From positions 8,346,329 through 8,410,328 of the forward strand of contig SJPJ01000001.1 of NCBI GenBank assembly GCA_007859835.1: 64,000 nucleotides of DNA. The letters run 5' to 3'. Within the stretch, counting starts at the first letter, position 1; each line of letters begins with the position of its first letter. Both the position numbers and the translations under genes were made by a program. The notes under the pieces are model-generated. The model was not told the DNA's origin. It ran no database searches and saw only the letters and a list, made by a program, of their open reading frames with translations. Source of the DNA: Novipirellula herctigrandis. Its GTDB lineage: Bacteria; Planctomycetota; Planctomycetia; Pirellulales; Pirellulaceae. Positions 7,188 through 47,996 of this stretch are shown piece by piece.

Positions 7188-7818
7188 ATCGTGCCGATTC
7201 GTTCGCGGTTTCGACGCCGGTCGTGCGTCAGTGATTCATCCTGGAAAATCATGGGTGAATCATGTGACAACCATCATGTGGCAACGTTATTAAACTGCGA
7301 GATCTCATCCACCAGCCTCGATTTCTCGGTCGCCGACGTCTTACGGAAGCGATCGCGACCACGATACCTAGTGTGACAGCTAATGTTGTGATCGCTAACG
7401 TGAAGCCAAAGCAGCTGGAATCGTCACGAAAGTAGGATCCTCCTCTCTTCAAGCATTGGTGGTGTCGGAGCAGGCAAAGGTCCCGTTTCTGGGAAGGTTT
7501 TAGTATTTTTTTGAAAATCTCGAAAAAATGCGTTAAGGAACTCTCCAGACCCGCCATTACTTCTCCAAGGGTACGTCCTAGCCCGCACTGTCAGTGGTTT
7601 TTCTGGCGTGAATGGGTGATGCAACTGGCACTGGGCCAAATTGGCAAGAATCGCCGATTGGCAGTGCTGCCGCGGAGGATGGGCATTCAAAGGATGGGCA
7701 TTACATCGTCAAGGTGTTTGTCTATCGAAGGTTATGAATTGTGCTCGGGATCAGGCCACGGCAACTGACAACTTTTGAGATTATTTTTTCTGTGACTTTA
7801 ACAAAGGCGAGCAGGAGT
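7188..7818. other. Intergenic region ahead of the PEP-CTERM block
   Basis: About 630 bases have no gene I can support. Minus-strand frames between 7249 and 7690 include a hydrophobic run followed by an Arg-rich stretch, but they overlap each other and lack a convincing start. A 15-base unit ggatgggcattcaaa at 7677-7691 is followed by a partial second copy to 7703. The promoter for the first PEP-CTERM gene presumably lies in the A/T-rich stretch before 7810. Confidence 0.45.
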
Positions 7819-29264: not shown

Positions 29265-32200
29265 ATGGGACGCAACACCTTTCGCTTCCAAACCGATTCT
29301 GTGCGAAAAAAGCGACGGCGACTGACTTGCGAATTGCTTGAAAGCAGACGCGTTCTGGCAGGCGCCGGTCCCGAAGTGCTGTCCATTGTGCGAGCAGATG
29401 CAAACCCGACCAATGACGCGCAAGTTGCATTCGAGATTACGTTCGATGAGGCAGTCACCGGCGTTGATGCGAACGATTTTGCGTTTGCGGTTTCCGGAGT
29501 CACAAGCCCAAGTGTCGCGAACGTTACCGGTAGTGGCACCGTTTATCGGGCGGTTGTTAATACGGGTACCGGCGATGGCACGCTTCGTTTGGATCTGATT
29601 GACAATGATTCAATCTTAGATAATCAAAACAAACCGCTGGGCGGTAGCGGAACGACTGGCAACAAAGATGGATCATTCTTTGGCGCGCAGTCGTATACGA
29701 TCGACAAGACGGCGCCCATCACGACGGGGGCAACATTGGTGGGAACGCCCGCCGCAATTGACGCGACGATTGATTTCAACTTGACGTTTAGTGAACCGGT
29801 CTCGACAATCGTTGCATCCATGTTCCAGCTTTCTGGATCCGCATCACCCACCGCTACGATCTCGAGCGTTAGCGGTTCAGGGTCGTCCTATGTGATCAAC
29901 GTCGATACCGGTGGCGGGCAAGGCGACCTGCAATTGGACTTCGTCGATGACGATACCATCACCGATGCGGTGGGCAACCCGGTCAATGGAATCGGCAGCC
30001 AAACGATTGTTGGCCAGTCACACACCGTCGATCATGTTGCGCCTACGGTTGTCTCGATTGTGGCGGACCAGCCCAGCCCGACCAATGCGGAACTGATCTC
30101 ACTTGAGGTGACCTTTGACGAACCAGTCGTCAATGTTGGCTTGAACGACTTTCAATTGACTGCGACAGATGTCACGAACGCGATGATCACCAATGTTGTC
30201 GGTTCCAGTAATGTCTACACCGTGACGATCAGCACTGGAACGGGCGATGGATCCGTTCAGCTTTCGATGAGTCCCACTGCGATGATTAGCGACGTCGCTG
30301 GAAACGTGCTGCCGGTTTCATCGACCGTGTCGAGTCTGCTTGAAATTGACAAGACGCTGGCGATCTCAATGAGCGTCGCGGTCGTGGGAAGCGGTTTTAG
30401 CGATGCATCGAGCGTGCAATATGACGTAACGTTTCCCGAGCCGATGCTAGGAATCTCCCCAGGCGTCTTTGAAGTGTACACGTCTGGGACTTCCACGTTG
30501 ACAGGCATGTCCGTCAGTTCGGTGACGGGCAGTGGCACGGATTATACGGTGACGATTGATACCGGCAGCGGCGATGGTTCGCTGTTTCTGCGATTGAATA
30601 ATCTGCCGGGAACCGCTCGTGATTTGGCGGGCAACGTCGCTAACGTCATTTATGCAAGCGGTTCGGTTTGGACGATTGACCGAACGGCACCGACGATCGA
30701 TAGCATCAATCTGGTTTCTTCGGCATCAAGCAATCAGGCATCGGTGGCATTCGATGTTTCACTGAGTGAATCGATGTACGGATTGTCCGCGAGCGATTTC
30801 TTCCTCGTGACAACGGGGGTTTCAGGAGCGTCGATTTCCTCGGTTTCACAAAACGGCAGCAGTTTGTTGTACCGTGTGTTCGTCAACACTGGCTCGGGAA
30901 ATGGCACCGTGTCGATCGCTAACACGACGACGGGTCTTGGATCGGACTCAGCTGGCAACCCGTTTGCCAGCGTGCAAAGCGGATTTCCAAGTTACATTAT
31001 GGATCGCACGGCTCCATTGATCACGTCGCTTGTTCGGCAAGACACCAACCCGACGGCCGCAGGATCGGTTCAGTTTGGTTTACAGTTCTCTGAGCCCGTT
31101 GAAAATTTTGGCATCGACGATCTCCTGGTTCTAACCAACGGCACGCTCTCGGGTGCCTCCGTTACTTCAGTCAATGGCGACGGGACTAGTTTTGTTGTTT
31201 CGGTTGATACCGGATCGGGTGATGGAGATTTGGAACTGGGAACGGTTGCCAGCCCAACCGCCACGGACGCTGCCGGGAATACAATCCCGTCTAGCTACTC
31301 GGGTGGCGAAGTCTATACGCTCGATCGAACCACGCCGACCATTTTAATGGTCGACCGAGTCTCGCCCACCGTCACGACTGGTAATAGCATTCAGTATGTA
31401 GTCAGTTACAGCGAGCCGGTTCTGAACGTGCAGACCAGTGATTTCTTGGTGGTTACCTCGCCCGAGGCTACGCCTCAGCCAGCGATTAGTGCGGTCGGTG
31501 TCGAGGGGGCGACCGCCACTGTGACCGTCGACGTTAGCAGTTATGAGGGCGCGGTCTATCTGTACGCCAAAGGCGGTGAAATCACGGACGCGGTCGGCAA
31601 CCCAATCGGGAACCAAGTGGTGGCGTCACAGCAATTCTACGTCGATCGCACGCCACCGATGGTAACCAGCGTGGTGTTGGAACAGTCGACGCCTACGACG
31701 CTCAGTGACCTTTCGTTTTTGGTGACGCTCAGCGAGTTGATTAACGGCTTTAGTTCGGCGGACGTCGCGATTGATCAGACCGGTTTACCCAATGCGGCGG
31801 TGTCGTCGATTGAGTATGTTGCGAGCGATCAGCGGCGGGTGCATGTCAGCGTAGGGCAGGGACAAGGTTCTTTGTCGATTGACATTCTTGGTGACCAGAC
31901 CATTCGAGACCTAGCCAATCAGAAAATCGTTGGCGATTCGACGGATCACCCCGCTTACGTGGTGGACAACCTCGCTCCCACGGTACAGTCGATTTCGCTA
32001 GTCGGCCCCAATCCGATCACCACATCGACGTTCACTTTCCAAGTGGCGTTCAGTGAACCCGTGACCGGAGTTTCATCAAGTTCGTTTTCTGTGGCGGCGA
32101 CCGGCGCTGTTTCCGCAACCATCGACTCGGTAACCGGCAGCGGTGATACGTACGAAGTGACGGTGACTAATTCAGGCGACACGGGCACGATTGCTCTAAC

Positions 32201-35200
32201 GGTCAACGATGATGATTCTATTGCTGATGCGTTGCTGAATCCACTTGGTGGAGTTGGTGACAACAACGGGGATTTCGCATCGGCGACTTTCGGCGTCGGT
32301 ACGACAGGACGGATCGCAGGCCGCGTCGTTGATGACATGGATGGCGATGGCTATGCCGACCTAGCAGAGGTGGGCATTGTTGGTGTCACGGTTTACGTTG
32401 ACCAGAACGGCAACGCGCAGTATGACACTGGCGAACCTTACGCGGAAACGCTCGGGGATGATGGAACGACAACCGAAGTTAACGAAGCGGGGACCTACCT
32501 GATTTCCGGAGTCATGCCGGGCGAACAGACCGTGCGGATGGTCTCGCCCGTCGGTTGGCTACAAACCAATCCTGCGATGCGTGCGTCTGGAAGCGGGCAA
32601 CTCACATTGGTTCAGTTGCTGCAAGACAACGTCGGCGGCAACAATGCGTTGGAGGAAGTGGCAGGGGTTACAGAAAGTCCTGATGGGAACTTTGTCTACG
32701 TGGCCGCGTATACGGACAATGCCGTGACCGTCTATTCTCGCAACCCAAGCACTGGCGGTCTAACGCGGGTGCAAACGGTTGTGAACGGCAGTGACGGTGT
32801 TGCTGGTTTGGTTGGTGCTCAATCAATCGCAATCACGCAGGACGGACAACATTTGTATGTCGCATCGGCCATTGATGATGCATTGGTGATGTTCTCACGC
32901 GACGAGTCAACGGGTTTGCTGACCTATTTGGGGCACCTGAAACAAGGCGTCGGTGGCGTCGATGGATTGAATGAAGCCACCGCGATTCGTGAAAGCGCCG
33001 ATGGCAAGAATCTCTACGTCGCCTCGGTAACCAGTAGTTCGCTAGCCGTGTTCGATCGAGACCCTGCATCTGGTTTGGTCACCTTCTCTCAAAAGTTGAC
33101 TGGCGCAACAGGCAATTCGTTCTCTGTCGATCTCAGCCCGGACCAGCGGCATGTCTACCTGTCGTCCGGAACGTCCAACGCCGTCAACGTCTATGACCGT
33201 GATTTGTCGACGGGGCAACTGACGCTGACTCAAACGGTAACGAAGGCATCTGCTGGATTTTCGACGCTGAATGAACCTTGGGGCATTTCGGTCGCGCCCG
33301 ATGGCAAGCATGTCTATGTGGCGACGCGATTGAGCCAAGGGGTCGTCGTGCTAAATCGTGATGTAGTCACCGGGCATGTCTCGTTCAACCAGTTTGTGCC
33401 GGATCCATTTTCTTTTGCGAATCCAGATCCGGTCGCGGTGTTGGTTAGCCCCGATGGTCATCATGTTGCCGTGACATTTCAGACCGGTGGCGGTTTGGCG
33501 ATCTACAGCCGCGACCAAGCGTCCGGCCAATTGACGTTAGTTGAATTTTACCGAGACGGCGTTGATGGCTTCAACCTCCTAAGAGGTGCTTGGGATGTTG
33601 AGTTTTCAAATGATGGCAAGTCGTTGTATTTGGTGACGGCTTACGAAGATGCAATCTACGCGTTTGATCGTGAAGTCGGCGATTATGTACCTTCGTCCGT
33701 TTCTGCGTCCGTTAGCGTTGGTGAAACGATCACCCTGGACGCGTTCGGCACAACAAATTTGGTTCCCAGGGTCGAGTCGATTACGTATAGCGGTGCCAAC
33801 CCCGCCACTGACGCAGCAGTGGACTTTTTGGTCGAATTTACCGAGCCCGTTTCCGGCGTTGATGTGAGTGACTTTACCTTTGTCGGTTCGTTTGCAGGAG
33901 CCACTGCGATTGCCGTTGTTGGCAGCGACGCCAGTTATACGCTGAGCGTTAGTCTTGCTGACGGTTTGCAAGGAACGTTGTCACCGCGTGTCAGTTTCGC
34001 TGGCGGGGTCGTTGACAACGAAGGACAACCGCTTGGCGGGGACGGCAGTGCCGTTTTCGACTCGATCGATGTGGATCGCCAAGCACCCACTTTGCTGTCG
34101 TCAAGCAAATTGGATTCGGAGCCGACGAACCAAACGAACTTGCGGTATCAACTAACCTTTTCAGAGCCTGTCACGGGTTTGGACTTGAGCGACTTGTCGG
34201 TTACCGCGTCGGGGGTGACCGGTGGTGCGGTCGATTCCGTCACTGGTAGCGGCGATACGTACGTTGTCAGGATTTCCTATTCGGGTGGCGAGGGGACGAT
34301 TGGCCTTGTCTTTGCCGACGATGATTCGATTGTCGATGGTGTCGGCTATTCCCTGGGCGGACCCGGTACGTCGTCGATTCCGCTGGCGTCTTACAATGTG
34401 CTGCTCGGCACGATCGAAGGAACTATTTTTAGCGACCTCGATTCCAACGGCCTGTTTGATGCGGGCGAGTCGGGTGTCGGGGCGATGACGTTGTTCATTG
34501 ATGTTAATAATGACGGCGACCTTGACGGGGGCGAGCCAACCACGACGTCGGATCCGTCGACCGGAACCTATTCGTTCGGCGGTTTAATCGACGGTAACTA
34601 TACCGTGCGTTGGCAACCACAATCGCCATATCTGCAAACCTTCCCATCTGGGAATGCGTCGCAGTCCGTTTCCGTTGCAGTGGCGTCTGGCGATTCCACT
34701 GCCGACTTTGGTGTTCATTTTGTGTTGCCAGGCACCATTGAGGGCGTCTTTTGGGATGACTTGGATGAAAACGGGCTGCTTGACATCGGCGAAGTCGGGG
34801 TCGCTGGATTGACGGTCTATGTCGACCTGAATGAGAATGGCGCCTTTGATGCGGGGACGGAACCCAGTTACGTCACCGACGTGGACGACGCGGAAACATC
34901 CGACTTGGACGAGACCGGCCAGTACACATTCACTGGACTGCAACCGGGGGCGTATACGATTCGAGTCGTGTCCAGCCAGTGGCAGTTCTTGGATGCATCG
35001 CCCTGGGACAATTCGATACCTTCGACTTACACCGACGCAACGAACTTTTCGGCCGATAACAAGACGGTTCGGATCAGCCCTGACGGTAACTTTGCTTACG
35101 TGTTCGATCACCTGAGCAACAAAATTGTCGTGCTGCAGATGCCGTCAACGCCCGGCGGTACGCTGACTCAAGTTCAATTGCTGACAGGCGAGTTCGCTGG

Positions 35201-38200
35201 CACGACCAACGCGATTGGTGATATTGCCTTCACGCCGGACGGGTCCACGATGTACGTCGTCGAGAACCAGTCGAATCAGTTGGCAGTTTACTCGCGAAAT
35301 ACCAGCGATGGAACGTTGGCACGCTGGCAAACGGTGTTCCCACCAGGCGTCTTCCCCTATTCGCTAGAAGTCGCACCCGACGGAAACCATTTGTACGTGG
35401 GCGGCGGTTACCTTGCGCCGTATTCAATCGATCCCACGGATGGCTCACTCACCACGCTAGTCTCCACAGCGACGCCGGCCCGGGTGCAAGACATTGTCTT
35501 CAATAGTGAAGGGACGCGGTTGTACGCTGCGGATTACGGCAATGGTCTGATCCGCGTTTATTCACGCGATACCACAACCGGTGCAATCACACAGTTACAG
35601 GCGATCGATTCACAGATCACGACGGATCTGTACAGCCTGTGGTCAATGGAGATTTCGGATGACGACCAAGATATCTACCTTGCCGCTCCGTTGACGGACC
35701 TGATTTGGCACTTCAAGGCCCAACCCGACGGGACGCTGGTGTATTCCCAGCATTACGATTTGGATACGGACAATATTCGTGACATCCCAATGGATTTGGA
35801 GCTTTCCGCCGACGGGAAAACACTGCTAGTGGCGCTGGGACTTGATAACGCGATCCAGGTGCTTCATCGAGATACGACCGATGGCAGTTTGTCGGTTGGC
35901 AGCGTGCTGGGGACAAGCGATCCGACAATTGCCAATATCTATCAAAACTCCTCATCGTTAATGGGCCTTTCAGCTGACGGTGGACTGTTAGTGCGTGCCA
36001 ACAACCGCGCCCAATCGCTTGAACTCTATCAAGTCTCTGATGGTGTCAGCAGTACCGCGACTTTTGAGGTCATGGAAGCTCAAACCTCGTCCATCAACTT
36101 TGGTGTGACCCTCCAATCGCCGAAAGTCGTCTCAGTCGCGTCTTCGACGCTTGGTCCCACCAATGCGACTTCGATCGATGTCGTAGTGACGTTCGATGAA
36201 CCTGTTACGGGAGTTGATATAGGTGACTTTGCGATCGACGCTTCGGGTGTCAGTGGTGTGTCGATTCAATCGGTTAGCGGTGCGGCGACGCAGTACACCG
36301 TGACGCTTGACGCGAGTGCAGCAACAGGTGAAGGCACCGTGGTGCTTCGAGTCATTGATAACGATACGATCGTCGACGCTGACTTGCACCCGCTTGATGG
36401 CGTTGGAACAAGTTCCAATGCGGGACAGTCTGCGGCAGTAATGGTTGACCATCAATCGCCGACCGTCATTTCGATCGTGGCGTTGAATTCCCCGATCGTC
36501 GATTCGTCCGATGTTCAGTTCACAGTGACGTTCTCGGAATCCGTTAGCGGTGTCGATTCAGGCGATTTTGCGGTTACTATGTCGGGCAGTGTATCGGCTG
36601 CGTCACTGCTGACTGTCACACCAGGTGCGCAAGCCAATACGTTTGATGTGGTCGTCAGTTCAGGGACGGGCGACGGAACGATTTCATTGAACTTAAGTGA
36701 CAACGACACGATTGTTGACGTCGTGGGACACGCCCTGGGAGGTGTTGGGCTTAGCAACGGTGACTTTGTTGGGGATTTCGCAATTATCGAGCGTAATCCG
36801 CTGCGGACGATCAATGGCACGGTGTTCAACGATATCAACAATGATGGTGTTCGTGACGCAGGTGAAGACGGTGCAGATGGCTCGCAAATCTTCATTGACC
36901 TCAATGGTAATGGCGACTTGGACAGTGGTTCGGAACCGTTCGATTGGTACGTTACGGATGGCATTTTCAGCTTTCCTAATCTGCCGCTGGGAACCTATAC
37001 GCTACGGGTGACTGATCGACTGCATTACGTCGAGTCAGCATTTTCAACGACGACGGTCGATCTTGGTTTTGACGATGATCCGTTGGTGGTCGATGTGCCA
37101 GCGACGCAAAACCAGTCAGCCTTTGTTGGAGTGGTGTTCGACGACTTGAATCAGAACGGTGTTCGTGATGCCGGTGAGCCCGGGATCTCAGGCCAACGGG
37201 TTTACTGGGATGACGATTTCGATGGCCAGTACGAAGACTTTGACACGTTCGTCGTAACGACTGACGACGATCTTGGAACGGTCGGGGACGAAACGGGAAC
37301 GTATGAATTGTCTCCGCTATGGTACCGGCTGTATCAAATTCGAGTCGATCGCGGACCTGAATGGTTGCCGACGTCGTCCGAATCCGCAGACGCAACGATT
37401 AGTTCGTCGACTCAGGTGGTCAATGCAGACTTTGGGCTAACGCCAAATTTGACTTCCATTTCCGGCGTCGTATTTGATGACGTTGACGGCGACGGCGTGC
37501 AACAAGCCGGCGAGAATTCTGCGGCCGGTTGGACGGTCTTCTTGGACGCAGACGACAATGGGCTCTTGGATGCTGGCGAATCGTCCCAGACGACCGATGC
37601 GACCGGGGGGTATTCGTTTGATCATCTTGCTCTTGGCAATCATCGTGTTCGCATGATGCCGCAATCCGGGTATGTAATCACGAGTACCGACTCAGCGTTC
37701 GTTCCGATTGCCACGAGCACGGACACCGCGAACGTCGATTTCGCTACGCATGCAAACTTGACCACGATTTCTGGTCACTTGTTCGACGATGTCAACGCCG
37801 ACGGTGTCGTGGATGCGGGGGAAGGGCCTATTGATGGCGTGGCGGTTTATTTGGACTCAAATGATAACGCTCGATTCGATGTGGGCGAACCTTCGACGAT
37901 AACGGGCGCATCAGGCAACTACACGTTTATCGACGTGCAACCCGGCGAGGTCGTTGTACGAATCGTGCCGCCGACCGGTTACGATCAATCGACGCCGTCA
38001 GTCCCCGTCGATCGGTTGTTTGTTTGGCACGGAAGCGACACGCTTCGCGAAGTCGATCCGACCGACGGTTCGACGATTGCGGATTATTGGCAGTTGACCT
38101 ATCCGACCACCTCGATCACGGCGGAAGGTTTGGCCTTTGATGGCGAATCATTGTGGGCACTAGATCGCAACCAGAAAAAAATATTCGAGATCGATCCGGA

Positions 38201-41200
38201 TGCAGTGACGATCGAAAGCCAGATTGATATCTCGTCGCTCGGACCGCCGACTTATGGGGTTGCTTGGAACGGGCTGGCGATCATCGATTCGACAATTTAT
38301 GTATCGGGTGCGGGCGGCGAAATGGGATCCGTCGACGCGTCCACGGGAACGTTGCTCGGCTTTGACTCTGTGTTTGATTCCAATTTTGCCTCGCCATTCC
38401 TATCCGGTGTGAATCAGCTTTTAGGAGTGGGCGTTTCCTCGGACGGTCAGTCACTGGTCGTCTCTACCGATGCAGATACAATTCTGACGCTGGATCCCAC
38501 GACGCTTGCGATCAGTGGATCCAACGCGGCGATCACCAGTTTCGAGCTTTCTGGTGTCGGTTCCGTTGGCGGATCGACGTATGTTTCGCAAATCAGCAGT
38601 TCGTCATTACTGGTTTTCGATAGTGTGGGGAATCAGACCGGAACGCTTCTAATTGGGTGCCAGGCGGTAGCCGTAGCCGGTGGCGTTTATCAAGATCACG
38701 CCGCGCGATTGACGGTTGCTTTGGATCAACAAGTCACCGGTGTTGAATTCGGTGCGTCGCAATTCTCAGGCAGCATTTCGGGTGTTCAGTTCTTTGACGA
38801 TAACGGCAATGGCGTTTTGGATGGCGGTGAACAGCCTGCTGTCGGCGTGACAGTGTTTGCCGATTTGAACAACAATGGTAGCCGTGATTTTGATGAACCT
38901 TTTGCGGTCAGTGCCGGTGATGGTTCTTACACGATCGAGGGTGTTTCGCCGGGAAGCCTAATCGTTCGAGCAACATCCGTAAGTCATCGTCCGAGTGACG
39001 CCTACTCGTCTCAAGACCGATTGTTTGGACTCAGGAATCTTTCGGGTTTCGTCCGGATTGACGAGATTGATACGACGACCGGTTCGATCGCTAACAGCCT
39101 GTTTACGTCTGTGCCTTACAACATCGCGGTTGCGATGGCGTTCGATGGCCAACGGCTAATCATTGTCGATAGCTCCGACGACATGCTATATCAAGTCGGG
39201 CTGGATGGCGCGATCATTCGTAGTCGTCATTTGGGCGAACCCTTCATCAACCAAACCAATGGCCAAACCGAGTACACGGCCGTGACCGATTTTGGGCCAA
39301 TCGTCGTTGGCGGCACGATCTATACGATTCGATCCGAGTTTGGCGGTTTGACGTTGTACTCGTACGACGCAGCGGCTGACGAGTTCACGAAAGAGCGCCC
39401 GATCAGTTTGGAATGGGGCCTCGAGTCGATGCCGGTTTCGTACAATCCGACCTTTCCTGTGGCGAATTTTGGTTCCGGCGTCAGTGCGGATGGGAAAAGC
39501 ATCGTATTGGCGACTGACGACGATCGCCTGATCGAAATCGACCTGGCAAGCGGCATCGCCACGTTCAGCCCTGAGCAGGTCTCCTCTAACGGCTTCGACT
39601 ATGCGATCGATTCCGTTGGTGGCGAAACCTTCATTGCCTATTCGGGTCGTATCGAAGTCGTCGACAATGATGGGAATCTACTTCGCACTCTGACCGCGAT
39701 TCCAACCTACTTGGGATTGGCCGGTGGCACCTATCGAGACAACGGGCAAGTCGTTGATGTGATCGTGGGACAGACAGCGACAGTTGATCATGGGCACGTC
39801 AGCACTGGCGGTATCATCTCCGGAACGATCGTCACGGACGCGAACGAGAATGGTGTCATCGATGCTGGCGAATCAGTCGTCGCGGGTGCCACCGTCTTTT
39901 TGGATCTCGACCGAAACGGACTTCTGGACGCAGGTGAGCCCATAGCGACGAGCGACGCGTCAGGAACCTATTCGTTCACGGGGGTTGCGCCGGGCGAGTA
40001 TTCGGTTCGACAAGTGGCCAGTACGGGCACGATTGCTAGAGCGTTTGCGCCGGACCAAACTCGATTGTTCCAAGCGATCCGCGGCACCGACAATCTGGTT
40101 GTGATTCAAGAACTCGATCCGATCACGAGCGAAGTGTTGAACCAATTCGATTCACCGCTTCCCGCCGTGACGAGCATCGGATTGGCGGCAAGAGAGAATC
40201 GTGTTTACTACTCGCGTAGCGGTGCCATTGACGTTCTGAATGCGAATGATGGCACGCTTTTAGATTCGATTCCTATTTCGACAGGAACGAAAGATGGTCT
40301 CGCGATCATCGGTGAGCGAGCCTACGTGCAAGATTACAACCAGAATACGATCCAGGTTGTCGATTTGGTCACGCGGCGCATTGTGGACAACTTGGACATT
40401 GGATTGGCCAACGGCGGAGGTCCCGGTTCGTTCAACCTTGCCTTTTCTTTGGCCGAAGCACCCGACGGAGTCAACTTGGCCGTTGTGCCGTACAGTGGCG
40501 GCGATGTTTCAATCGTTGATCCAAGTACTGGCGTGATTATCGACTCACTGAGTGGCATCTATGCAGGGACCGGTAGCGCGAGCGCCGGTGGGGAATATTA
40601 TGAACGTGGCATCTTTTCCAATGGAGTTCAAATCACGATTTTCGTTCACGATCATCTAGGACTGCAACGCCGCGTCCTTCCGCTGACGTATGAAGGATAT
40701 GTGTACGGTTTAGGAGCGACTTCGATTCCGGCGACCGAGCACCGAGTCACCCTGTTTCCAGAACAGTCACTTTCAGGTGTGGATTTCGGAGAAGTTTCCG
40801 AATCGGCGACGATCAGCGGCATCCAATTTGGTGACGTTAATGCAAACGGTATCCAAGATGCGGGCGAGTTTGGACTCTCGGGGGTCACCGTGTTTGCGGA
40901 CTTGAACGCGAATGGATTCATTGACGCTGGTGAACCATCGACTGTCAGTATCGGTGACGGCAGTTACACACTGACCGACGTCCCGCGAGGTTCGCAGTGG
41001 ATACGTACGGCGGCAACGGGTTATAACGCGACGTCGAGTTTGGGGTCGAGCAATCGTATGTTCGGGACGACGCGAGTCCCGGACGCATCAAGCCCGACAC
41101 AGTACGTCTTGCAAATTCGCGAATTGGATCCGGCGACGGGAATTCCTATCGCCTACACCGCGACAAGCATCCCCGTGCTAACGGCGTACACCAGCGCGTT

Positions 41201-44200
41201 CGTGAATGATCGGTTGATCATTGTGGACAACGGCCAAGACAAGATCATGCAAGTCGCCTTGGACGGTACGTTGATCGGCGAATCTCCGCTACCGAACTCT
41301 GGCAGTTCGTTTGCGTACGCTTATGGACCCGCCGTGATCGACGGCACGGTTTACGTGACGATGATTGGCGGAGGCAAACCACTGCGACTGGAACGGTACG
41401 ATCTGGAAACAAATCAGTTCTACGGAGCAATGTTTATCTCGGAAGATGTATCACAGAATCCCTCGCTTGACCCAATGCCGCAGATTTCCGAATCCGTGGC
41501 CGAGTCGCCGGATGGTAAGTCGATTGTGCTTTTTTCCTACGTCGACGATCGTGCGTTTATCGTTGATCCGCTGACCGCTCGCGTTACCACGGTCGTGAAT
41601 TTGCCCGAAACGGGCAATCGCGTTTATTTCGCAGCAACATTGGCCGGAGAACTTTACGCTCGTGGTTCAAGTTCGAGTGCCAACTTGAACGTTTACGATG
41701 CAAACTACGCGTTTGTACGTACGTTGGGGAATCCGCAAACAGGCGGGTTGGCCGCTGGCATAGATTTGGCACTGGGAGTCCTTGTTGATGCGAACTCAGC
41801 GGCAATTGCCAATGTCGATATCGGCCAACGTGAAATTCACACCGATGTGACCGGGATCGTCTCGTATGACACGAACGTCAATGGCATCGTCGATCCTGGC
41901 GAAGAAACGGCTGGCGCGACAGTCTACTTGGACGCTAACCGCAACGGTGTATTGGATATTGGTGAGGTAACGACAACGACGTTCGTCGACGGTAGCTACT
42001 CGTTTACTCAGCTCTCAGCGGGTGACTACTCCGTTGCGGTTGATCACCCTACGAGCGAACGGGTCGTCACCACTGCGATTGAAACGGCATTGTTCGCGTT
42101 GGAAGTTTCCGGCGGAGTATCAACCATTCGGAAGCACGACGCGATCACCGGGCAAGTGCTACGCGAGTTCTCGGCCCCTGGCGTGTCGTTGGATGTTGCC
42201 GGTTTAGCTGTCGACGATTACGCGCTCTATTATGCATCGCCCGATGGTGTCTGGGTACTGGATCACGACACTGGTGCCGTGATGGACTTCTTCGATTTTG
42301 CGAATGCTCAGTACGACGGCCTCGCCGCGCTTGGGGGACGCATCTTCGTTCTCAACTCGACGACTGAGTCAATTCTTAGCATCGATCCGAGAACCGGTAT
42401 CATCCTCGACACGTTGGCGATCAACGCGATCAACAATACGTCTTACTCGTTCAGCGGCAACTTGGGCGAGTCAACCGACGGCGAGAACCTAATCATGAGA
42501 ATGCCTTCGGGTGGCGGGCTTTTAATTGATCCGGACACCGGTCTGATCGAACAATGGTATGCGTACAACTATGGTGCCTGGGCGATCGCCGGTGCCGATG
42601 GTGAGCTATATCGTTCCAATGGCGGTACAGCGATTCGTGTCGAGTCGGAACTTGAGCAACAAATTCGCTTGGTGCCCGTTGGTTACGAACCGCGTTCCAT
42701 CGCTGCTGCGGTGATCCCGGCATCCGCGTACGACTTGCGTGCTGCCGAAGCAATCAATTTCACGGCACTTGATTTCCAACTCGCACCGGCCGACCAATTT
42801 CCAACGACCATTATCAGCGGCGTCGTTTGGAGTGACCTTGACCACGATGGGATGCGTGATGCGGGTGAGGCTGGATTACCCAGCGTGACAGTTTACATCG
42901 ATGTCAATCATAACCATATGTTTGATGCTGGTGACATTAGCCAAACGACTCTGCCAGACGATCCTGAGACAACCGCTGTGGATGAATCGGGTAGCTACTC
43001 CTTTGCTGGCTTACCGCCGGGAATCTACGATGTACGGCAAGTTGTTCAGACATCTTTCGTTGGCACGTCGCCGGTCGATCACGTTTTGGAGTATGACCAG
43101 CGGTACGATACTGACTTTGTGATGCCATCGCAGTTCGAGGATCATCCGCTCGATGATTTGCGTCTGAGCGAAACGGGCCGATATTTAGTCTACGCAAGCA
43201 CGCGTCAAGTTCTTTCCGAGGACACGAATACCGTCCGTGATGTTTACTTGTTGGATCGAACCACGAACGAACAAGAGCTGGTGTCCATCACCACGGCGGG
43301 TCTCTCGGCGAATAACAACAGTTTTGAACCGGACGTTTCGAGCGACGGACGCTACGTCATCTTCCGATCCTGGGCCAACAACTTGGATCCGGCCGATACC
43401 GACAACTTCTTGGATGTCTATATTCGCGATCGATTGCTTGGAACAACCACGCTGTTGACCGCCGGTATCAACGGTGGACCCGGAAATGGCAATTCGCGAG
43501 ACGCGATCATCACGCCTGATGGCCATTTCGTCGTGCTTACGTCCTGGGGCGATCAGTTGGTCACCGGGGACACAAACGCTCTTGCTGATACATTCGTATT
43601 CGACTTGCAATCCAACACAGTTCAGCGAGTCAGTGTTACGCATACCCACGCACTCACCGACGGTAGCAGTTGGGGCGGCGACATCACCCCCGATGGTCGA
43701 TACGTGTTGTTCACGTCGAGTTCATCACAACTAGTTCCAGGCGACACGAATGCCCAGAACGATATTTTCCGCAAAGATTTGATCACCGGCCAAGTCGAGC
43801 TTGCATCGGCTTCGGATACTGGCACGCCAGGAGACAACAAAAGTCAAAAACGTTCGATCAGTGACGATGGTCGCTGGGTTGTGTTCGATTCGTTGGCATC
43901 CAATCTGACGAGCGACGCACATCCAGGATCAGGCGAAGCGTATTACGTCTATTTGAAAGACATGCAAACGGGCGACATCAAACGTATCAGCAACACAACG
44001 GTGTTGGGTGCATACGAGGGCAACAGCCAACGCCCAGAGATTAGCGGTGATGGCCGGTTTGTGGTGTTTGAAACCGACGGCCAACTCGTTCCGGCCGATA
44101 CAAACCAACGAATCGACGTCTACATGTACGACCGACTGACAGAGGAATTGATCTTAGTAAGCCACGGTGACAATGGTCAGCTTAGTCGTGATTCCAGCAA

Positions 44201-47200
44201 CAACGCGGTCATTAGCGCGGACGGGTCAACGATTGCTTTCACAACAAATTCGTCAAATATTTTGGGCCTGAAGACGATTGGCGGAATCGTCACTGTCGAT
44301 ATCGAGAAATTGCTGGCCGCACATCGCGTCCAACTGTCGACCGGTGGCCAGTCGTCCGGAAACGACTTTGGCCAAGTCTTCGTCACCAGTTCGATCACGG
44401 GAACACTATGGAATGACGAAAATGGCGACGGGGTATTGGACGATACCGAACCACGACTCGGCGGGCGCACATTGTTCTTGGATACCAACAATAATGGTGC
44501 TTTCGATATCGGCGAACCGACGCGAGTGACACTTGCCGACGATCCTGTCTCACCGACGATCAACGAGGCTGGTTCGTACGAGTTTGCTGGACTTAGCGCC
44601 GGGAACTACGCGGTTCGTCAGATTCTGCCGACCGGTTGGACACAAACCGCGCCGATCGAAGTCGCCGGAATACAGCTTCTAACCGAAACTGACTATGCCC
44701 ACGGCGTCAACACCACCACGCATCCGATTTACGATTCAGCTGCCAGCGATGATGGACGATTCATTGCGTTTTCGACAAACAAGTCGATGTTGCCAATCGA
44801 TACCAACACCGGTTCGGACCTTTACCTGATGGATCGCAGCACCGGTGACATCGAGCTAGTATCGCAATCCACTTCGGGGACGCTGGCAAACGGAGTTAGC
44901 CGAAACGTCTCAATCAGTGGCGACGGTCGATATGTAGTCTTTCGATCCTTCGCGAGCAATCTGTCAGCGATGGATTCAAACGGTACGTGGAATATTTACG
45001 TTCGCGACAGACAGCTGGAAACAACAACGTTGGTCAGTTCCGCCCCAGCGAGTCAAACTAGCGGCGAACAGGTCGGTAATAGCTACAGCTACAACCCGAA
45101 GATTAGCCGTGACGGCAGCGTCGTCACATTCTGGTCCAATTCGAGCAACCTGATCGATGGCGACACGAACGGCCAATTTGATGTGTTCTTGAAGAACATG
45201 CAAACGGGCACTATCGAGCGAATTAACGTTGATTCAGACGAGAATCAAGCAAGCGGTGGACAGAGTCATGAGAATTTGCCCAACGCCAATGGTCAGTTGG
45301 TCGGATTTTGGAGCAACGCAACCAATCTTGTCCCAGGTGACAACAATGCATCCAATGACGTGTTCATTCGCGATCGACAGACGGGGCTAACCGAGCGTGT
45401 CAGCGTGTCAGCAACCGGTGAGCAAGGAAATGCATCCAGTGATCATTTCTCGATGTCCGATGATGGTCGGTTTTTTGCTTTTCAGTCAAACGCAACCAAC
45501 TTGACCAGCGACGTCGGCTTGACCGGCAGCAAGCAAGTCTTCTTGAAAGATCGACAAACGGGCACCGTGACACTCGTTTCAAAAGGTGACGCGGCGTTAC
45601 CCGATGGAACGGCTTTGTATCCCGCAATCAGTAGCGACGGACGTTGGCTCACGTATCAATCGACTTCTAGCAACATTGTCCCCGACGACACGAACGGCAG
45701 TGTCGATGTCTTTTTGTACGACACCGTCAATGCCACGACCGCAATACTAAGTCGAAACACCGCGGGTGGTGCATCGGATGGTCCCAGTGACTGGCCAAGG
45801 ATGTCGCGAGACGGTTCAACGATTATGTTCAATTCAGCCGCAACCAATCTGGTCGACCAATCCCCCGTAAGCGGCGCGCTGTACATCTATCGAACCCAAA
45901 GCGATGACCCGTTCGTGATGAAGGTCGCGTTAGGGCTCGACCAGACGCTTGCCGGCAATAATTTCGGCAGCCAGGAAATGGTAGACCGAGGTGATGCACC
46001 CCAGAGCTATGGTTCTGCAACTCACCGATTCGATCCCGAAATCCGACTTGGAGCTGAAGTTAGCTTCGACATTCAAACGGGACTAGCTGATCCCGATGAC
46101 GACGGCGTGTTGGTAACCAGCCGATTGTCGGCTGGCTTCAGTGGACAATTCGAAGTCACTACTTCCACCGTTGGTACGCTTGCCGCATGGATCGACTTCA
46201 ACGCCGATGGCGATTTCGATCCAGAAGAACGCAGTGAATTTACGGTCGGGATTGCAGAGTCGACCACCACGGAGTCGATCGTGATTTCGATTCCCGCGGA
46301 TGCGACACTCGGGGAAACGTACGCGCGTTTCCGATTCAGTACCGATGCCACATCGGTTCAATTGCCAACCGGTCAGGCTCTTAATGGAGAAGTCGAGGAC
46401 TACCCTGTCACACTCGAAACACCAGTCGCCGCTACCGACATTGCACTTTCCAACACGTCCATCAACGAAAATCTAGATACTTCGGCTGCGGATCTGCTGT
46501 TCGCAAGCCTTGCTGGCGTTGATGAAGACCACAACGATTCACACACCTTTGAACTCGTCCCCGGAACCGGCGACACCGACAACACCAAATTTGTCATCTC
46601 AGGCGATCAAATACTACTAAAACAAGGTGAGATTCTGGACTACGAAACGCAGTCATCCTATACGGTGCGGATTCAGGTCAGCGATGCCGCAGGATTAACT
46701 TTTGAGAAATCGGTGGAGCTTGGCGTCAATAACCTTGTCGAACTCACAAAGCAACACATCACCGTCGGTGACGGAGCGGCACAACGTTCACGGATTGACA
46801 CAGTCACCATTGAGTTTGACGCGGAAATAGCCATCGAACCGAACGCCTTTGTTGTCACCAAGCGGGGTGATGGCGGTGGCCAAGTCATCGTCGATTTCAC
46901 AACGCGAGTGGACTCCAATGGCCACACCATCGCTGACCTGACTTTCAGCGGTTTGTTCGTTAATTTTGGCTCCCTGGTCGACGGGAACTATGAATTGCGA
47001 GTTGATGCGGCTAAAATCGTCTCTGTAGGTGGATTCGGTTTAGACGCCAACCAAGACGGCGTGACCGGAGACGACTTCCGATTTGGCGACGACGCAGCGG
47101 ATAAGTTCTTCCGACTGTTTGGTGATGTTCGAGGGCTTCGTGCCGTTGGCGCATTTGAGTTCAACCAGTTCCGCCAATCGTTTGGAAAAGTAGCGGTTCA

Positions 47201-47306
47201 GTTCGGATACAACCAAGCGTTCGACTACCGCGGCCTAGGAGTTGTCGGATCTTTTGAGTTCAATGAGTTCAGAAAACGATACGGTTCGATCCTTGGCTGG
47301 GAATAG
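29265..47306 (+). CDS. Giant 6013-residue mosaic surface protein (LEPR-XLL-like, Ig-like, SdrD-B, beta-propellers, GEVED, cadherin, dockerin-like)
   Basis: One uninterrupted frame of 18 kb. Residues 12-33 (KKRRRL, then CELLESRRVLAG) form the planctomycete LEPR-XLL-type N-terminus instead of a standard signal peptide. Residues 36-1012 hold nine Ig-like repeats of about 105 residues (pattern TFSEPVTGV, SVTGSG, TGSGDG, DxxGNPLGG). Then come SdrD-B-type repeats, about 13 in all (pattern DxNxNGxxDxGE), interleaved with lactonase-type beta-propellers (from about 1114 and 1929), four more Ig-like repeats, further propeller segments (about 2916-4506) and two TolB/PD40-like propellers (about 4620-5010 and 5157-5539; DGRYVVFRS, DVFLYD). 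Near the end are a GEVED domain (about 5582-5719, AAWIDFNADGDFDP, GEVEDYPV), a cadherin-like domain (about 5726-5824) and a duplicated, Ca-ligand-poor dockerin-like pair (5951-6013). A huge extracellular adhesin or matrix protein is likely. Domain bounds are by eye. Confidence 0.9.
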   Translation: MGRNTFRFQTDSVRKKRRRLTCELLESRRVLAGAGPEVLSIVRADANPTNDAQVAFEITFDEAVTGVDANDFAFAVSGVTSPSVANVTGSGTVYRAVVNTGTGDGTLRLDLIDNDSILDNQNKPLGGSGTTGNKDGSFFGAQSYTIDKTAPITTGATLVGTPAAIDATIDFNLTFSEPVSTIVASMFQLSGSASPTATISSVSGSGSSYVINVDTGGGQGDLQLDFVDDDTITDAVGNPVNGIGSQTIVGQSHTVDHVAPTVVSIVADQPSPTNAELISLEVTFDEPVVNVGLNDFQLTATDVTNAMITNVVGSSNVYTVTISTGTGDGSVQLSMSPTAMISDVAGNVLPVSSTVSSLLEIDKTLAISMSVAVVGSGFSDASSVQYDVTFPEPMLGISPGVFEVYTSGTSTLTGMSVSSVTGSGTDYTVTIDTGSGDGSLFLRLNNLPGTARDLAGNVANVIYASGSVWTIDRTAPTIDSINLVSSASSNQASVAFDVSLSESMYGLSASDFFLVTTGVSGASISSVSQNGSSLLYRVFVNTGSGNGTVSIANTTTGLGSDSAGNPFASVQSGFPSYIMDRTAPLITSLVRQDTNPTAAGSVQFGLQFSEPVENFGIDDLLVLTNGTLSGASVTSVNGDGTSFVVSVDTGSGDGDLELGTVASPTATDAAGNTIPSSYSGGEVYTLDRTTPTILMVDRVSPTVTTGNSIQYVVSYSEPVLNVQTSDFLVVTSPEATPQPAISAVGVEGATATVTVDVSSYEGAVYLYAKGGEITDAVGNPIGNQVVASQQFYVDRTPPMVTSVVLEQSTPTTLSDLSFLVTLSELINGFSSADVAIDQTGLPNAAVSSIEYVASDQRRVHVSVGQGQGSLSIDILGDQTIRDLANQKIVGDSTDHPAYVVDNLAPTVQSISLVGPNPITTSTFTFQVAFSEPVTGVSSSSFSVAATGAVSATIDSVTGSGDTYEVTVTNSGDTGTIALTVNDDDSIADALLNPLGGVGDNNGDFASATFGVGTTGRIAGRVVDDMDGDGYADLAEVGIVGVTVYVDQNGNAQYDTGEPYAETLGDDGTTTEVNEAGTYLISGVMPGEQTVRMVSPVGWLQTNPAMRASGSGQLTLVQLLQDNVGGNNALEEVAGVTESPDGNFVYVAAYTDNAVTVYSRNPSTGGLTRVQTVVNGSDGVAGLVGAQSIAITQDGQHLYVASAIDDALVMFSRDESTGLLTYLGHLKQGVGGVDGLNEATAIRESADGKNLYVASVTSSSLAVFDRDPASGLVTFSQKLTGATGNSFSVDLSPDQRHVYLSSGTSNAVNVYDRDLSTGQLTLTQTVTKASAGFSTLNEPWGISVAPDGKHVYVATRLSQGVVVLNRDVVTGHVSFNQFVPDPFSFANPDPVAVLVSPDGHHVAVTFQTGGGLAIYSRDQASGQLTLVEFYRDGVDGFNLLRGAWDVEFSNDGKSLYLVTAYEDAIYAFDREVGDYVPSSVSASVSVGETITLDAFGTTNLVPRVESITYSGANPATDAAVDFLVEFTEPVSGVDVSDFTFVGSFAGATAIAVVGSDASYTLSVSLADGLQGTLSPRVSFAGGVVDNEGQPLGGDGSAVFDSIDVDRQAPTLLSSSKLDSEPTNQTNLRYQLTFSEPVTGLDLSDLSVTASGVTGGAVDSVTGSGDTYVVRISYSGGEGTIGLVFADDDSIVDGVGYSLGGPGTSSIPLASYNVLLGTIEGTIFSDLDSNGLFDAGESGVGAMTLFIDVNNDGDLDGGEPTTTSDPSTGTYSFGGLIDGNYTVRWQPQSPYLQTFPSGNASQSVSVAVASGDSTADFGVHFVLPGTIEGVFWDDLDENGLLDIGEVGVAGLTVYVDLNENGAFDAGTEPSYVTDVDDAETSDLDETGQYTFTGLQPGAYTIRVVSSQWQFLDASPWDNSIPSTYTDATNFSADNKTVRISPDGNFAYVFDHLSNKIVVLQMPSTPGGTLTQVQLLTGEFAGTTNAIGDIAFTPDGSTMYVVENQSNQLAVYSRNTSDGTLARWQTVFPPGVFPYSLEVAPDGNHLYVGGGYLAPYSIDPTDGSLTTLVSTATPARVQDIVFNSEGTRLYAADYGNGLIRVYSRDTTTGAITQLQAIDSQITTDLYSLWSMEISDDDQDIYLAAPLTDLIWHFKAQPDGTLVYSQHYDLDTDNIRDIPMDLELSADGKTLLVALGLDNAIQVLHRDTTDGSLSVGSVLGTSDPTIANIYQNSSSLMGLSADGGLLVRANNRAQSLELYQVSDGVSSTATFEVMEAQTSSINFGVTLQSPKVVSVASSTLGPTNATSIDVVVTFDEPVTGVDIGDFAIDASGVSGVSIQSVSGAATQYTVTLDASAATGEGTVVLRVIDNDTIVDADLHPLDGVGTSSNAGQSAAVMVDHQSPTVISIVALNSPIVDSSDVQFTVTFSESVSGVDSGDFAVTMSGSVSAASLLTVTPGAQANTFDVVVSSGTGDGTISLNLSDNDTIVDVVGHALGGVGLSNGDFVGDFAIIERNPLRTINGTVFNDINNDGVRDAGEDGADGSQIFIDLNGNGDLDSGSEPFDWYVTDGIFSFPNLPLGTYTLRVTDRLHYVESAFSTTTVDLGFDDDPLVVDVPATQNQSAFVGVVFDDLNQNGVRDAGEPGISGQRVYWDDDFDGQYEDFDTFVVTTDDDLGTVGDETGTYELSPLWYRLYQIRVDRGPEWLPTSSESADATISSSTQVVNADFGLTPNLTSISGVVFDDVDGDGVQQAGENSAAGWTVFLDADDNGLLDAGESSQTTDATGGYSFDHLALGNHRVRMMPQSGYVITSTDSAFVPIATSTDTANVDFATHANLTTISGHLFDDVNADGVVDAGEGPIDGVAVYLDSNDNARFDVGEPSTITGASGNYTFIDVQPGEVVVRIVPPTGYDQSTPSVPVDRLFVWHGSDTLREVDPTDGSTIADYWQLTYPTTSITAEGLAFDGESLWALDRNQKKIFEIDPDAVTIESQIDISSLGPPTYGVAWNGLAIIDSTIYVSGAGGEMGSVDASTGTLLGFDSVFDSNFASPFLSGVNQLLGVGVSSDGQSLVVSTDADTILTLDPTTLAISGSNAAITSFELSGVGSVGGSTYVSQISSSSLLVFDSVGNQTGTLLIGCQAVAVAGGVYQDHAARLTVALDQQVTGVEFGASQFSGSISGVQFFDDNGNGVLDGGEQPAVGVTVFADLNNNGSRDFDEPFAVSAGDGSYTIEGVSPGSLIVRATSVSHRPSDAYSSQDRLFGLRNLSGFVRIDEIDTTTGSIANSLFTSVPYNIAVAMAFDGQRLIIVDSSDDMLYQVGLDGAIIRSRHLGEPFINQTNGQTEYTAVTDFGPIVVGGTIYTIRSEFGGLTLYSYDAAADEFTKERPISLEWGLESMPVSYNPTFPVANFGSGVSADGKSIVLATDDDRLIEIDLASGIATFSPEQVSSNGFDYAIDSVGGETFIAYSGRIEVVDNDGNLLRTLTAIPTYLGLAGGTYRDNGQVVDVIVGQTATVDHGHVSTGGIISGTIVTDANENGVIDAGESVVAGATVFLDLDRNGLLDAGEPIATSDASGTYSFTGVAPGEYSVRQVASTGTIARAFAPDQTRLFQAIRGTDNLVVIQELDPITSEVLNQFDSPLPAVTSIGLAARENRVYYSRSGAIDVLNANDGTLLDSIPISTGTKDGLAIIGERAYVQDYNQNTIQVVDLVTRRIVDNLDIGLANGGGPGSFNLAFSLAEAPDGVNLAVVPYSGGDVSIVDPSTGVIIDSLSGIYAGTGSASAGGEYYERGIFSNGVQITIFVHDHLGLQRRVLPLTYEGYVYGLGATSIPATEHRVTLFPEQSLSGVDFGEVSESATISGIQFGDVNANGIQDAGEFGLSGVTVFADLNANGFIDAGEPSTVSIGDGSYTLTDVPRGSQWIRTAATGYNATSSLGSSNRMFGTTRVPDASSPTQYVLQIRELDPATGIPIAYTATSIPVLTAYTSAFVNDRLIIVDNGQDKIMQVALDGTLIGESPLPNSGSSFAYAYGPAVIDGTVYVTMIGGGKPLRLERYDLETNQFYGAMFISEDVSQNPSLDPMPQISESVAESPDGKSIVLFSYVDDRAFIVDPLTARVTTVVNLPETGNRVYFAATLAGELYARGSSSSANLNVYDANYAFVRTLGNPQTGGLAAGIDLALGVLVDANSAAIANVDIGQREIHTDVTGIVSYDTNVNGIVDPGEETAGATVYLDANRNGVLDIGEVTTTTFVDGSYSFTQLSAGDYSVAVDHPTSERVVTTAIETALFALEVSGGVSTIRKHDAITGQVLREFSAPGVSLDVAGLAVDDYALYYASPDGVWVLDHDTGAVMDFFDFANAQYDGLAALGGRIFVLNSTTESILSIDPRTGIILDTLAINAINNTSYSFSGNLGESTDGENLIMRMPSGGGLLIDPDTGLIEQWYAYNYGAWAIAGADGELYRSNGGTAIRVESELEQQIRLVPVGYEPRSIAAAVIPASAYDLRAAEAINFTALDFQLAPADQFPTTIISGVVWSDLDHDGMRDAGEAGLPSVTVYIDVNHNHMFDAGDISQTTLPDDPETTAVDESGSYSFAGLPPGIYDVRQVVQTSFVGTSPVDHVLEYDQRYDTDFVMPSQFEDHPLDDLRLSETGRYLVYASTRQVLSEDTNTVRDVYLLDRTTNEQELVSITTAGLSANNNSFEPDVSSDGRYVIFRSWANNLDPADTDNFLDVYIRDRLLGTTTLLTAGINGGPGNGNSRDAIITPDGHFVVLTSWGDQLVTGDTNALADTFVFDLQSNTVQRVSVTHTHALTDGSSWGGDITPDGRYVLFTSSSSQLVPGDTNAQNDIFRKDLITGQVELASASDTGTPGDNKSQKRSISDDGRWVVFDSLASNLTSDAHPGSGEAYYVYLKDMQTGDIKRISNTTVLGAYEGNSQRPEISGDGRFVVFETDGQLVPADTNQRIDVYMYDRLTEELILVSHGDNGQLSRDSSNNAVISADGSTIAFTTNSSNILGLKTIGGIVTVDIEKLLAAHRVQLSTGGQSSGNDFGQVFVTSSITGTLWNDENGDGVLDDTEPRLGGRTLFLDTNNNGAFDIGEPTRVTLADDPVSPTINEAGSYEFAGLSAGNYAVRQILPTGWTQTAPIEVAGIQLLTETDYAHGVNTTTHPIYDSAASDDGRFIAFSTNKSMLPIDTNTGSDLYLMDRSTGDIELVSQSTSGTLANGVSRNVSISGDGRYVVFRSFASNLSAMDSNGTWNIYVRDRQLETTTLVSSAPASQTSGEQVGNSYSYNPKISRDGSVVTFWSNSSNLIDGDTNGQFDVFLKNMQTGTIERINVDSDENQASGGQSHENLPNANGQLVGFWSNATNLVPGDNNASNDVFIRDRQTGLTERVSVSATGEQGNASSDHFSMSDDGRFFAFQSNATNLTSDVGLTGSKQVFLKDRQTGTVTLVSKGDAALPDGTALYPAISSDGRWLTYQSTSSNIVPDDTNGSVDVFLYDTVNATTAILSRNTAGGASDGPSDWPRMSRDGSTIMFNSAATNLVDQSPVSGALYIYRTQSDDPFVMKVALGLDQTLAGNNFGSQEMVDRGDAPQSYGSATHRFDPEIRLGAEVSFDIQTGLADPDDDGVLVTSRLSAGFSGQFEVTTSTVGTLAAWIDFNADGDFDPEERSEFTVGIAESTTTESIVISIPADATLGETYARFRFSTDATSVQLPTGQALNGEVEDYPVTLETPVAATDIALSNTSINENLDTSAADLLFASLAGVDEDHNDSHTFELVPGTGDTDNTKFVISGDQILLKQGEILDYETQSSYTVRIQVSDAAGLTFEKSVELGVNNLVELTKQHITVGDGAAQRSRIDTVTIEFDAEIAIEPNAFVVTKRGDGGGQVIVDFTTRVDSNGHTIADLTFSGLFVNFGSLVDGNYELRVDAAKIVSVGGFGLDANQDGVTGDDFRFGDDAADKFFRLFGDVRGLRAVGAFEFNQFRQSFGKVAVQFGYNQAFDYRGLGVVGSFEFNEFRKRYGSILGWE

Positions 47307-47348
47307 TCTTACTTCATTAGTAGAGTACGTAAAAAAGAAACATTATCT

Positions 47349-47996
47349 ATGAATCGACGTTTTCGAAGCTTGTTATCTACCGTGCTCGTGATGTGGCTGA
47401 TGAGTAATCTACAAGCAGATGCTGCAATTTCATATCGCATCGAACTCTCCGAAGGCACCGGCATATTACAGGACGTTCGTCCCTCGGTTTCCGGTGAGTC
47501 CCTAACAGCGAATGTCATACTTGAGCTTGACGGAGATACGACACTTGCCAATTACAGCGTCTCACTTGGCTTTGACCCGACTGAATTGTCTTACGTTACG
47601 GGAAGTGAAACGCCACCCTCACCCCTTTCAAGCTTGAATGCGTTGTCGCTAAACATAACGGTACCGAGCCAACCCGAAGTGGATGGAATCGAGGCAGGAA
47701 CATTGGGGCCAACTGGTGCTTCAGTAGGAATATATACAATCGCTTCTTTAACATTCAACATCTTGACGCCACTCGGCGACGCCACTGATGTCGACTTGAT
47801 CCTGTTCGACGATGAACTCCTGGATGGTTCTTTCGATCAGGAGTTTAATCTGTTAGTTCCCGTTTATGGAGGCGCCAGCATTACCGCCGTTGCCGTTCCT
47901 GAACCTTCCACTTTTTCGTTAGGCGTCGCCTGTGTCGTTGGCACGCTTACAAAGCGTCGTCGCCGACGGCAATCGGTGCGTTTTAGAGTTGCATGA
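47349..47996 (+). CDS. Small PEP-CTERM protein with a cohesin-like domain
   Basis: This encodes 215 residues and starts 42 bases after the stop of the giant gene, so cotranscription is likely. A signal peptide (FRSLLSTVLVMWLMSNL, cut near ADA) is followed by one beta-sandwich of about 140 residues: ESLTANVILELDGDTTLANY, SVSLGFDPTELSYVTGS, and GIYTIASLTFNIL. This strand pattern, with a y-D-p-x-x-L segment and a late tltF strand, is like cohesin and cohesin-like PEP-CTERM domains. The C-terminus is a sorting signal (VPEPSTFSLGVACVVGTLTK, then RRRRRQ). It should be exported and processed by an exosortase. Because the giant protein ends in a dockerin-like pair, it could be a surface anchor for it; this pairing is a hypothesis. 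Confidence 0.78.
   Translation: MNRRFRSLLSTVLVMWLMSNLQADAAISYRIELSEGTGILQDVRPSVSGESLTANVILELDGDTTLANYSVSLGFDPTELSYVTGSETPPSPLSSLNALSLNITVPSQPEVDGIEAGTLGPTGASVGIYTIASLTFNILTPLGDATDVDLILFDDELLDGSFDQEFNLLVPVYGGASITAVAVPEPSTFSLGVACVVGTLTKRRRRRQSVRFRVA

Follow-up and report, generated by a model that had tools for sequence, protein, structure and literature searches.

Cohesin–dockerin systems outside the cellulosome are known, planctomycetes included, where the 'planctosome' of freshwater Nemodlikiaceae has been described (PMC6461901). The nearest planctomycete precedent we found, it has a cohesin and a dockerin that play no part in breaking down cellulose, according to the passages of PMC6461901 that describe it, as does the locus analysed here: two adjoining genes in a 64,000-nt stretch (hereafter, the window) of the 9.5 Mb genome of Novipirellula herctigrandis (contig SJPJ01000001.1, positions 8,346,329–8,410,328, forward strand), the first encoding a giant protein with a dockerin-like tail and the second a small PEP-CTERM protein with a predicted cohesin fold. 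In the planctosome model, as outlined in the same passages, anchoring falls to a 2210-amino acid (aa) protein that bears a lamin-tail domain and takes peptidases as clients (PMC6461901). At the present locus the predicted anchor is a 215-aa protein with one cohesin and a PEP-CTERM signal, whose likely client is the giant of the adjoining gene.

With the cellulosomal type I and type II pairs (C. thermocellum; B. cellulosolvens, 2y3n) the locus has both folds in common, as well as the internal symmetry of the dockerin, which underlies dual binding in clostridial cellulosomes according to the relevant passages of PMC5429695. The cohesin sheet to which dockerins bind is given there as 8-3-5-6. The locus differs from these pairs in having a single cohesin, no multi-cohesin scaffoldin and no glycoside hydrolase family among the Pfam matches of the giant protein at E ≤ 0.01; with neither the multi-cohesin scaffoldin nor the carbohydrase clients that define a cellulosome, the pair falls outside that class. 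The calcium ligands of a cellulosomal dockerin are, moreover, largely lost from the window copy. The non-cellulosomal cohesin of Archaeoglobus fulgidus (2xdh) is among the Foldseek matches. Sorting by the PEP-CTERM/exosortase route typically involves a VPEPS motif, a hydrophobic stretch and an Arg-rich end, together with exosortase genes, all of which are found here; what sets this case apart is a cohesin as the protein being sorted, one that would serve a second protein as its anchor. Our literature search found no paper joining PEP-CTERM with dockerin, or PEP-CTERM with cohesin. For dockerin and exosortase it returned work on anaerobic methanotrophic (ANME) archaea (PMC5244752), in which cohesin, dockerin and sorting-signal domains are counted within the same genomes and, in the relevant passages, are not described as sitting in neighbouring genes or together in a single protein. 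A PEP-CTERM cohesin anchor and a ligand-poor dockerin look like new elements relative to the known non-cellulosomal systems.

We consider it probable that the two genes constitute a dedicated dockerin–cohesin pair, in which the giant would dock on its own exosortase-sorted, single-cohesin anchor. The pair comprises the following features (positions in the window; basis of each call in brackets):

29265..47306, + strand: giant gene, 6013-aa product (open reading frame (ORF) list and translation; Pfam domains)
within 29265..47306, + strand: SdrD_B-like, Big_12 and lactonase-like stretches and GEVED (Pfam)
46749..47090, + strand: Ig-like module preceding the dockerin and conserved together with it (pattern, alignment of 18 members)
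47091..47303, + strand: C-terminal dockerin-like domain (AlphaFold2 (AF2), Foldseek, profile search of the PDB)
47124..47159, + strand: F-hand loop 1, DVRGLRAVGAFE, 12 residues, Arg at 3, Leu at 5 (sequence)
47223..47258, + strand: F-hand loop 2, DYRGLGVVGSFE, 12 residues, Arg at 3, Leu at 5 (sequence)
47307..47348, + strand: intergenic gap of 42 bases (ORF coordinates)
47349..47996, + strand: PEP-CTERM protein gene, 215 aa, predicted cohesin anchor (ORF list, Pfam, AF2, Foldseek)
47424..47894, + strand: cohesin-like beta-sandwich domain (AF2, Foldseek, profile; start after the signal-like N-terminus placed by eye)
47895..47993, + strand: PEP-CTERM sorting signal, VPEPS, hydrophobic stretch and Arg-rich end (sequence; Pfam PF07589)

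An initial annotation of this DNA, made from the letters alone, had described the end of the 6013-residue protein as two EF-hand-like loops, and both indeed carry Asp 1, Arg 3, Leu 5, Val 8 and Glu 12, each loop being followed by a helix. Plain single-sequence searches named neither protein of the pair, so that profiles built from relatives were needed; the window tail by itself gave solely unrelated sub-threshold matches in Pfam and NCBIfam. Relatives of the last 187 residues of the giant were found in 90 of 241 family genomes (E ≤ 0.001), forming a tail family in which the Ig-like module is followed by a double loop (FFRLFGDxDGDRxV...FDxDGDGxV). Of 18 aligned members, Pfam Dockerin_1 (PF00404) matches 14 at E ≤ 1, and Big_5 matches the Ig-like module in three of the 18, the window copy giving no match. 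Given this spread and the Dockerin_1 matches, chance EF-hand likeness was dropped as an explanation of the tail. When a profile of 18 tails was searched against the PDB, the best match was the type II dockerin 2y3n_B (E = 4.3e−9), which, among the best 60 of 243 rows, outranks calmodulins and calmodulin-based sensors that have the EF-hand in common with it. The AF2 model of the tail contains two loop–helix units, with a block predicted local distance difference test score (pLDDT) of 87–95 for model residues 21–70 and lower values (54 and 68) in the first two blocks. Its Foldseek match to 2y3n_B, at rank 6, is the sole dockerin match listed (E = 0.013, probability 1.00, template modelling (TM) score by target 0.73, root-mean-square deviation 2.4 over 61 columns). 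On the strength of these models, the window tail is predicted to adopt a dockerin fold.

The gene 42 bases further on encodes, as had been proposed, a PEP-CTERM protein (PF07589, E = 0.0025, 18.3 bits against a cut-off of 20.7). Its 215 residues run from a signal-like N-terminus through a predicted beta-sandwich to a PEP-CTERM end in which the PEP motif, the transmembrane stretch and the basic C-terminus are all present, and exosortase genes occur in the same genome (five match rows, best E = 1.9e−54). Against Pfam and NCBIfam the protein gave PEP-CTERM matches only, all under the cut-off, and phmmer against the PDB returned no cohesin. Pfam Cohesin (PF00963) has two matches in the genome, with none over the cut-off and the window gene not among them, and a single match (E = 0.029) on 27 partner proteins. 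Modelled by AF2 on an alignment of 41 sequences, the protein reached a pLDDT of 80 and a predicted TM score (pTM) of 0.77, and the best 50 of 1727 Foldseek rows (E ≤ 10) were all cohesin modules or cohesin-containing chains, with a best E of 2.5e−6 and TM-scores by target of 0.66–0.72 for the first five. These rows include 2o4e, which we take to be a cohesin, its title saying just protein–protein interaction module. The predicted fold is the jelly-roll beta-sandwich of cohesins, and sequence homology to cohesins was found for a profile of seven sequences of the window's own type (type A, see below): its five PDB matches are all cohesins, of which one is significant (4ums, E = 3.9e−5; remaining four, E = 0.1–0.57), two of the five being titled Endoglucanase in the profile search and cohesin in the Foldseek listing.

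We then considered whether the two genes stay together in relatives. From the matches listed for the tail module, themselves a subset of all its matches, a part, 104 tails, was fetched, and 99 were counted after dropping five with less than 700 nt downstream. A PEP-CTERM ORF, called by a custom pattern, lies directly downstream in 34 of the 99, representing 29 of 45 genomes and 10 of 11 genera; the count includes one locus (G049:C2) that was fetched since its partner had been found, without which it is 33 of 98. These ORFs start between −32 and +234 nt from the stop of the tail gene, on the same strand, and in genus g35, the eleventh, the order is reversed, with the PEP-CTERM gene ahead of the dockerin gene. 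Among other dockerin genes of the window's own genome, a PEP-CTERM ORF followed in 2 of 33 rows (Fisher p = 7.5e−4, ignoring kinship; 35 of 48 rows were used, some rows being the same gene, and two lacked a stop). Among other ORFs, a set that takes in loci chosen for partner matches as well as spurious ORFs, it followed in 13 of 256 (Fisher p = 8.8e−12, again ignoring kinship). Structure prediction thus gave an EF-hand-like tail and a cohesin-like neighbour, and the neighbourhood recurs in relatives, so that on each of the three points on which the initial annotation had staked its proposal the outcome favours a pair.

With signal peptides removed, 28 of the 34 downstream neighbours fall into one cohesin-like group at E < 1e−4, which splits at E < 1e−5 into type A (eight sequences, the window included) and type B (the larger part); between a type-B profile and type A the alignment spans 152 columns (E = 9.2e−7, probability 91%). 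Type-A cohesin matches number 18 in 241 genomes, and 13 of these have a dockerin-like gene alongside. Setting aside the seven rows used to build the model, the proportion is 6 of 11, where G097, among the six, was assigned by eye and another of them is a tandem second copy. For the five other matches (G185, G207, G147, G171 and a paralogue in the window's own genome), no dockerin gene was found within the stretches fetched. In a sample of the phylum (27 of 29 non-window loci used, two without a stop), a PEP-CTERM ORF followed 3 of the 25 tails checked, only one of the three being outside the family, and the sample thus gives no support for a wide spread of the pairing beyond the family.

The two loops of the tail resemble each other more than expected. 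Across 56 non-redundant tails (a 60% identity cut being the sole reduction of relatedness), the two loops of a given protein agree at eight variable positions in 65% of cases versus 22% expected (0 of 5000 shuffles). Taken singly, agreement exceeded all 1000 shuffles at positions 3, 5, 7, 9, 10, 11, 13, 14, 17, 18, 20 and 21, reaching 70% versus 12% at position 10, and no clear excess was seen at positions 2, 4, 6, 8 and 19. In the window copy the loops are identical at 11 (F/F), 13 (F/F), 14 (N/N) and 17 (R/R), and similar at 10 (A/S) and 18 (Q/K). Positions 10, 11, 17, 18 and 22 count as the classical dockerin recognition positions. This symmetry fits what is expected of dual-mode dockerins, whose two faces would have been selected for one socket; recent duplication was dropped as its sole cause, there being no clear excess at positions 2, 4, 6 and 8.

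From the two matched folds, the conserved pairing and the symmetry we infer docking. The giant protein would be secreted, as its N-terminus suggests, with the dockerin at its C-terminal end, while the small protein, likewise exported judging from its N-terminus, would fold as a single cohesin. The PEP-CTERM end of the small protein would direct it, through exosortase, to the outer face of the cell, a step to which the motif and the exosortase genes point, and docking of the dockerin on the cohesin would hold the giant at the surface. As the two dockerin halves present nearly identical recognition residues, either half can probably bind.

Across the tail family, calcium ligands are mostly canonical: in 91 of the 104 tails, each loop has a possible ligand (D, N, S, T or E) at position 3 and again at position 5. 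The tails of the G109 and G150 pairs, for instance, have ligands there in either loop. The window copy is the only one of the 104 with a ligand at none of these four positions; positions 1 and 12 are retained in both of its loops. In two further tails, G015:C75 and G093:C448, loop 1 has Arg 3 and loop 2 is canonical; loop 1 of G015 carries Thr at 5. Loops with a ligand at neither 3 nor 5 number three (two in the window, one in G093), each with Arg at 3. When the three Arg-3 tails were made into a profile, they scored 137–146 bits with it, as follows from its construction, against 72 for the next tail in 241 genomes; among the 29 readable of 30 loci fetched, Arg 3 was confined to these three. 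The Arg-3 loop type thus looks rare, and the substitution has the look of a replacement more than of chance loss. With most of the calcium cage gone from the window copy, Arg 3 may occupy the site and pair with Asp 1 and Glu 12, in which case the tail may fold and dock with little calcium or none. The calcium independence suggested by the initial annotation would accordingly describe the window copy, perhaps also loop 1 of the two relatives, and not the tail family. A more specific version, which we put forward tentatively and at slightly less than even odds, is a cation-swap dockerin: Arg 3 would replace both calcium ions as loop centre and allow calcium-independent docking of the giant on its own PEP-CTERM cohesin, within a family-wide set of plug-and-socket gene pairs.

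The same ligand loss admits two other readings. The tail could be a decaying dockerin, whose ancestors docked and whose loops have here lost calcium binding and no longer work. Its solitary position among the 104 tails would agree with decay. No close orthologue was found for a selection test; the same-genus genome G147 has a canonical tail, with a PEP-CTERM ORF adjoining. The window's recognition positions are nevertheless still symmetric (11, 13, 14 and 17), the Arg-3 type of loop 1 occurs in two genomes of other genera, each with its own type-A cohesin neighbour, and the neighbouring cohesin gene is an intact ORF, all of which makes decay improbable. Alternatively, Asp 1, Glu 12 and main-chain oxygens may still suffice for the dockerin to hold calcium, its mechanism being ordinary. 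Both loops do retain positions 1 and 12, and an atypical dockerin coordination by n, n+6 and n+12 plus water is on record in the passages of PMC5429695 concerned. However, in each loop Arg 3 brings a positive charge into the site and Leu 5 takes away another ligand, and we judge residual binding unlikely, without counting it as far-fetched.

A dedicated pair must also be weighed against the reading that the neighbours are merely co-regulated surface genes, with no binding between tail and PEP-CTERM protein. PEP-CTERM matches are common (11–77 PF07589 matches per genome at E ≤ 10 in 13 genomes), and several results speak against a dedicated pair. A PEP-CTERM gene directly downstream is absent for 65 of the 99 tails, and in genus g60 an adjoining one was found in 3 of 40. 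Six of the 34 neighbours lie outside the cohesin-like group, two as singletons (L162 and L209) and four in another PEP-CTERM family, in which no cohesin signal was found. Similarity between tails and partners, compared for 27 of the 34 pairs, is weakly correlated, and hardly more so at recognition positions (Mantel rho 0.19, 33/2000) than elsewhere (0.18, 60/2000); this mirror test, being weak and unspecific, was not used as support. An AF2 model of the two domains as a fused chain gave a pTM of 0.45, and a Foldseek search with it found no match at E ≤ 0.001. At the level of the single proteins, the Pfam Dockerin profile has no match to the window tail, whose loops also depart from the Pfam Dockerin ligand pattern (1/3/5(9)/12); the type-B profile alone found nothing in the PDB; and neither protein of the pair passes the Pfam cut-off for Dockerin, Cohesin or PEP-CTERM. 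On the other side, 28 of the 34 neighbours belong to the cohesin-like group, and a cohesin is the known partner of a dockerin, which co-regulation alone does not predict; mere co-regulation is accordingly improbable in our assessment. As for g60, many of its tails (genomes G206–G213) have the motif DGQDYGRFG in common, which, with so few adjoining partners, suggests that they may use shared cohesins encoded elsewhere.

A dedicated dockerin–cohesin pair would offer a testable answer to how giant proteins may be held on the cell, namely by a small sorted cohesin anchor encoded alongside. The analysis supplies about 30 candidate plug-and-socket pairs whose specificity is directly testable, and one class of PEP-CTERM proteins gains a testable function. 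A possible calcium-free version of the dockerin would be of interest to protein engineering.

Beyond its tail, the giant protein matches SdrD_B (7+5 stretches), Big_12, Lactonase and GEVED in Pfam, and its N-terminus matches Planc_extracel at 18.7 bits, under the cut-off of 25.5. This match, the abundance of PEP-CTERM proteins and a weak match (41% over 65 residues) to a metagenome-assembled contig of a 'Planctomycetaceae bacterium' agree with a planctomycete origin. A consensus scan listed no promoter-like or terminator-like sites inside the 47307..47348 gap.

Partners vary elsewhere in the family. In genus g50, giants of similar length from four genomes (L113, L114, L115 and L118) differ in their dockerin motifs and have three kinds of partner, which looks as though tail and socket had been exchanged as a unit. 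Behind the dockerin genes of L115, L118, L184 and L195, a second PEP-CTERM family stands in the cohesin's place, in which no cohesin signal was found. Cohesin-like PEP-CTERM paralogues without an adjoining dockerin gene in the stretches read were seen at L221/L251 (G000:C1:824476, own genome) and L213 (G147); the gene upstream of the former resembles a glycosyltransferase by eye.

Outside the window, the genome encodes about 30 proteins, many very long, with a different dockerin pattern, DVNxDGxxTALDALLVINxL (e.g. L014–L036), and none of the genes of this type checked in the genome has a PEP-CTERM ORF directly downstream. In two of the proteins (L047 and L027; G000:C1:5143292 and 5928895) this dockerin lies just after an N-terminal LExRxLLA-like motif and not near the C-terminus. 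In another genome (L098, G170:C1:1256957), a PEP-CTERM gene follows a gene ending near a DALxVIN-type dockerin, an arrangement from which dockerins of this type may pair too. Two other genes of the window's own genome, L040 and L038, encode other dockerin-like loops and have a PEP-CTERM gene directly downstream. Within the window itself, a second ORF (7741–10077, 778 aa) also ends in a PEP-CTERM signal (G000:C1:8356328–8356399).

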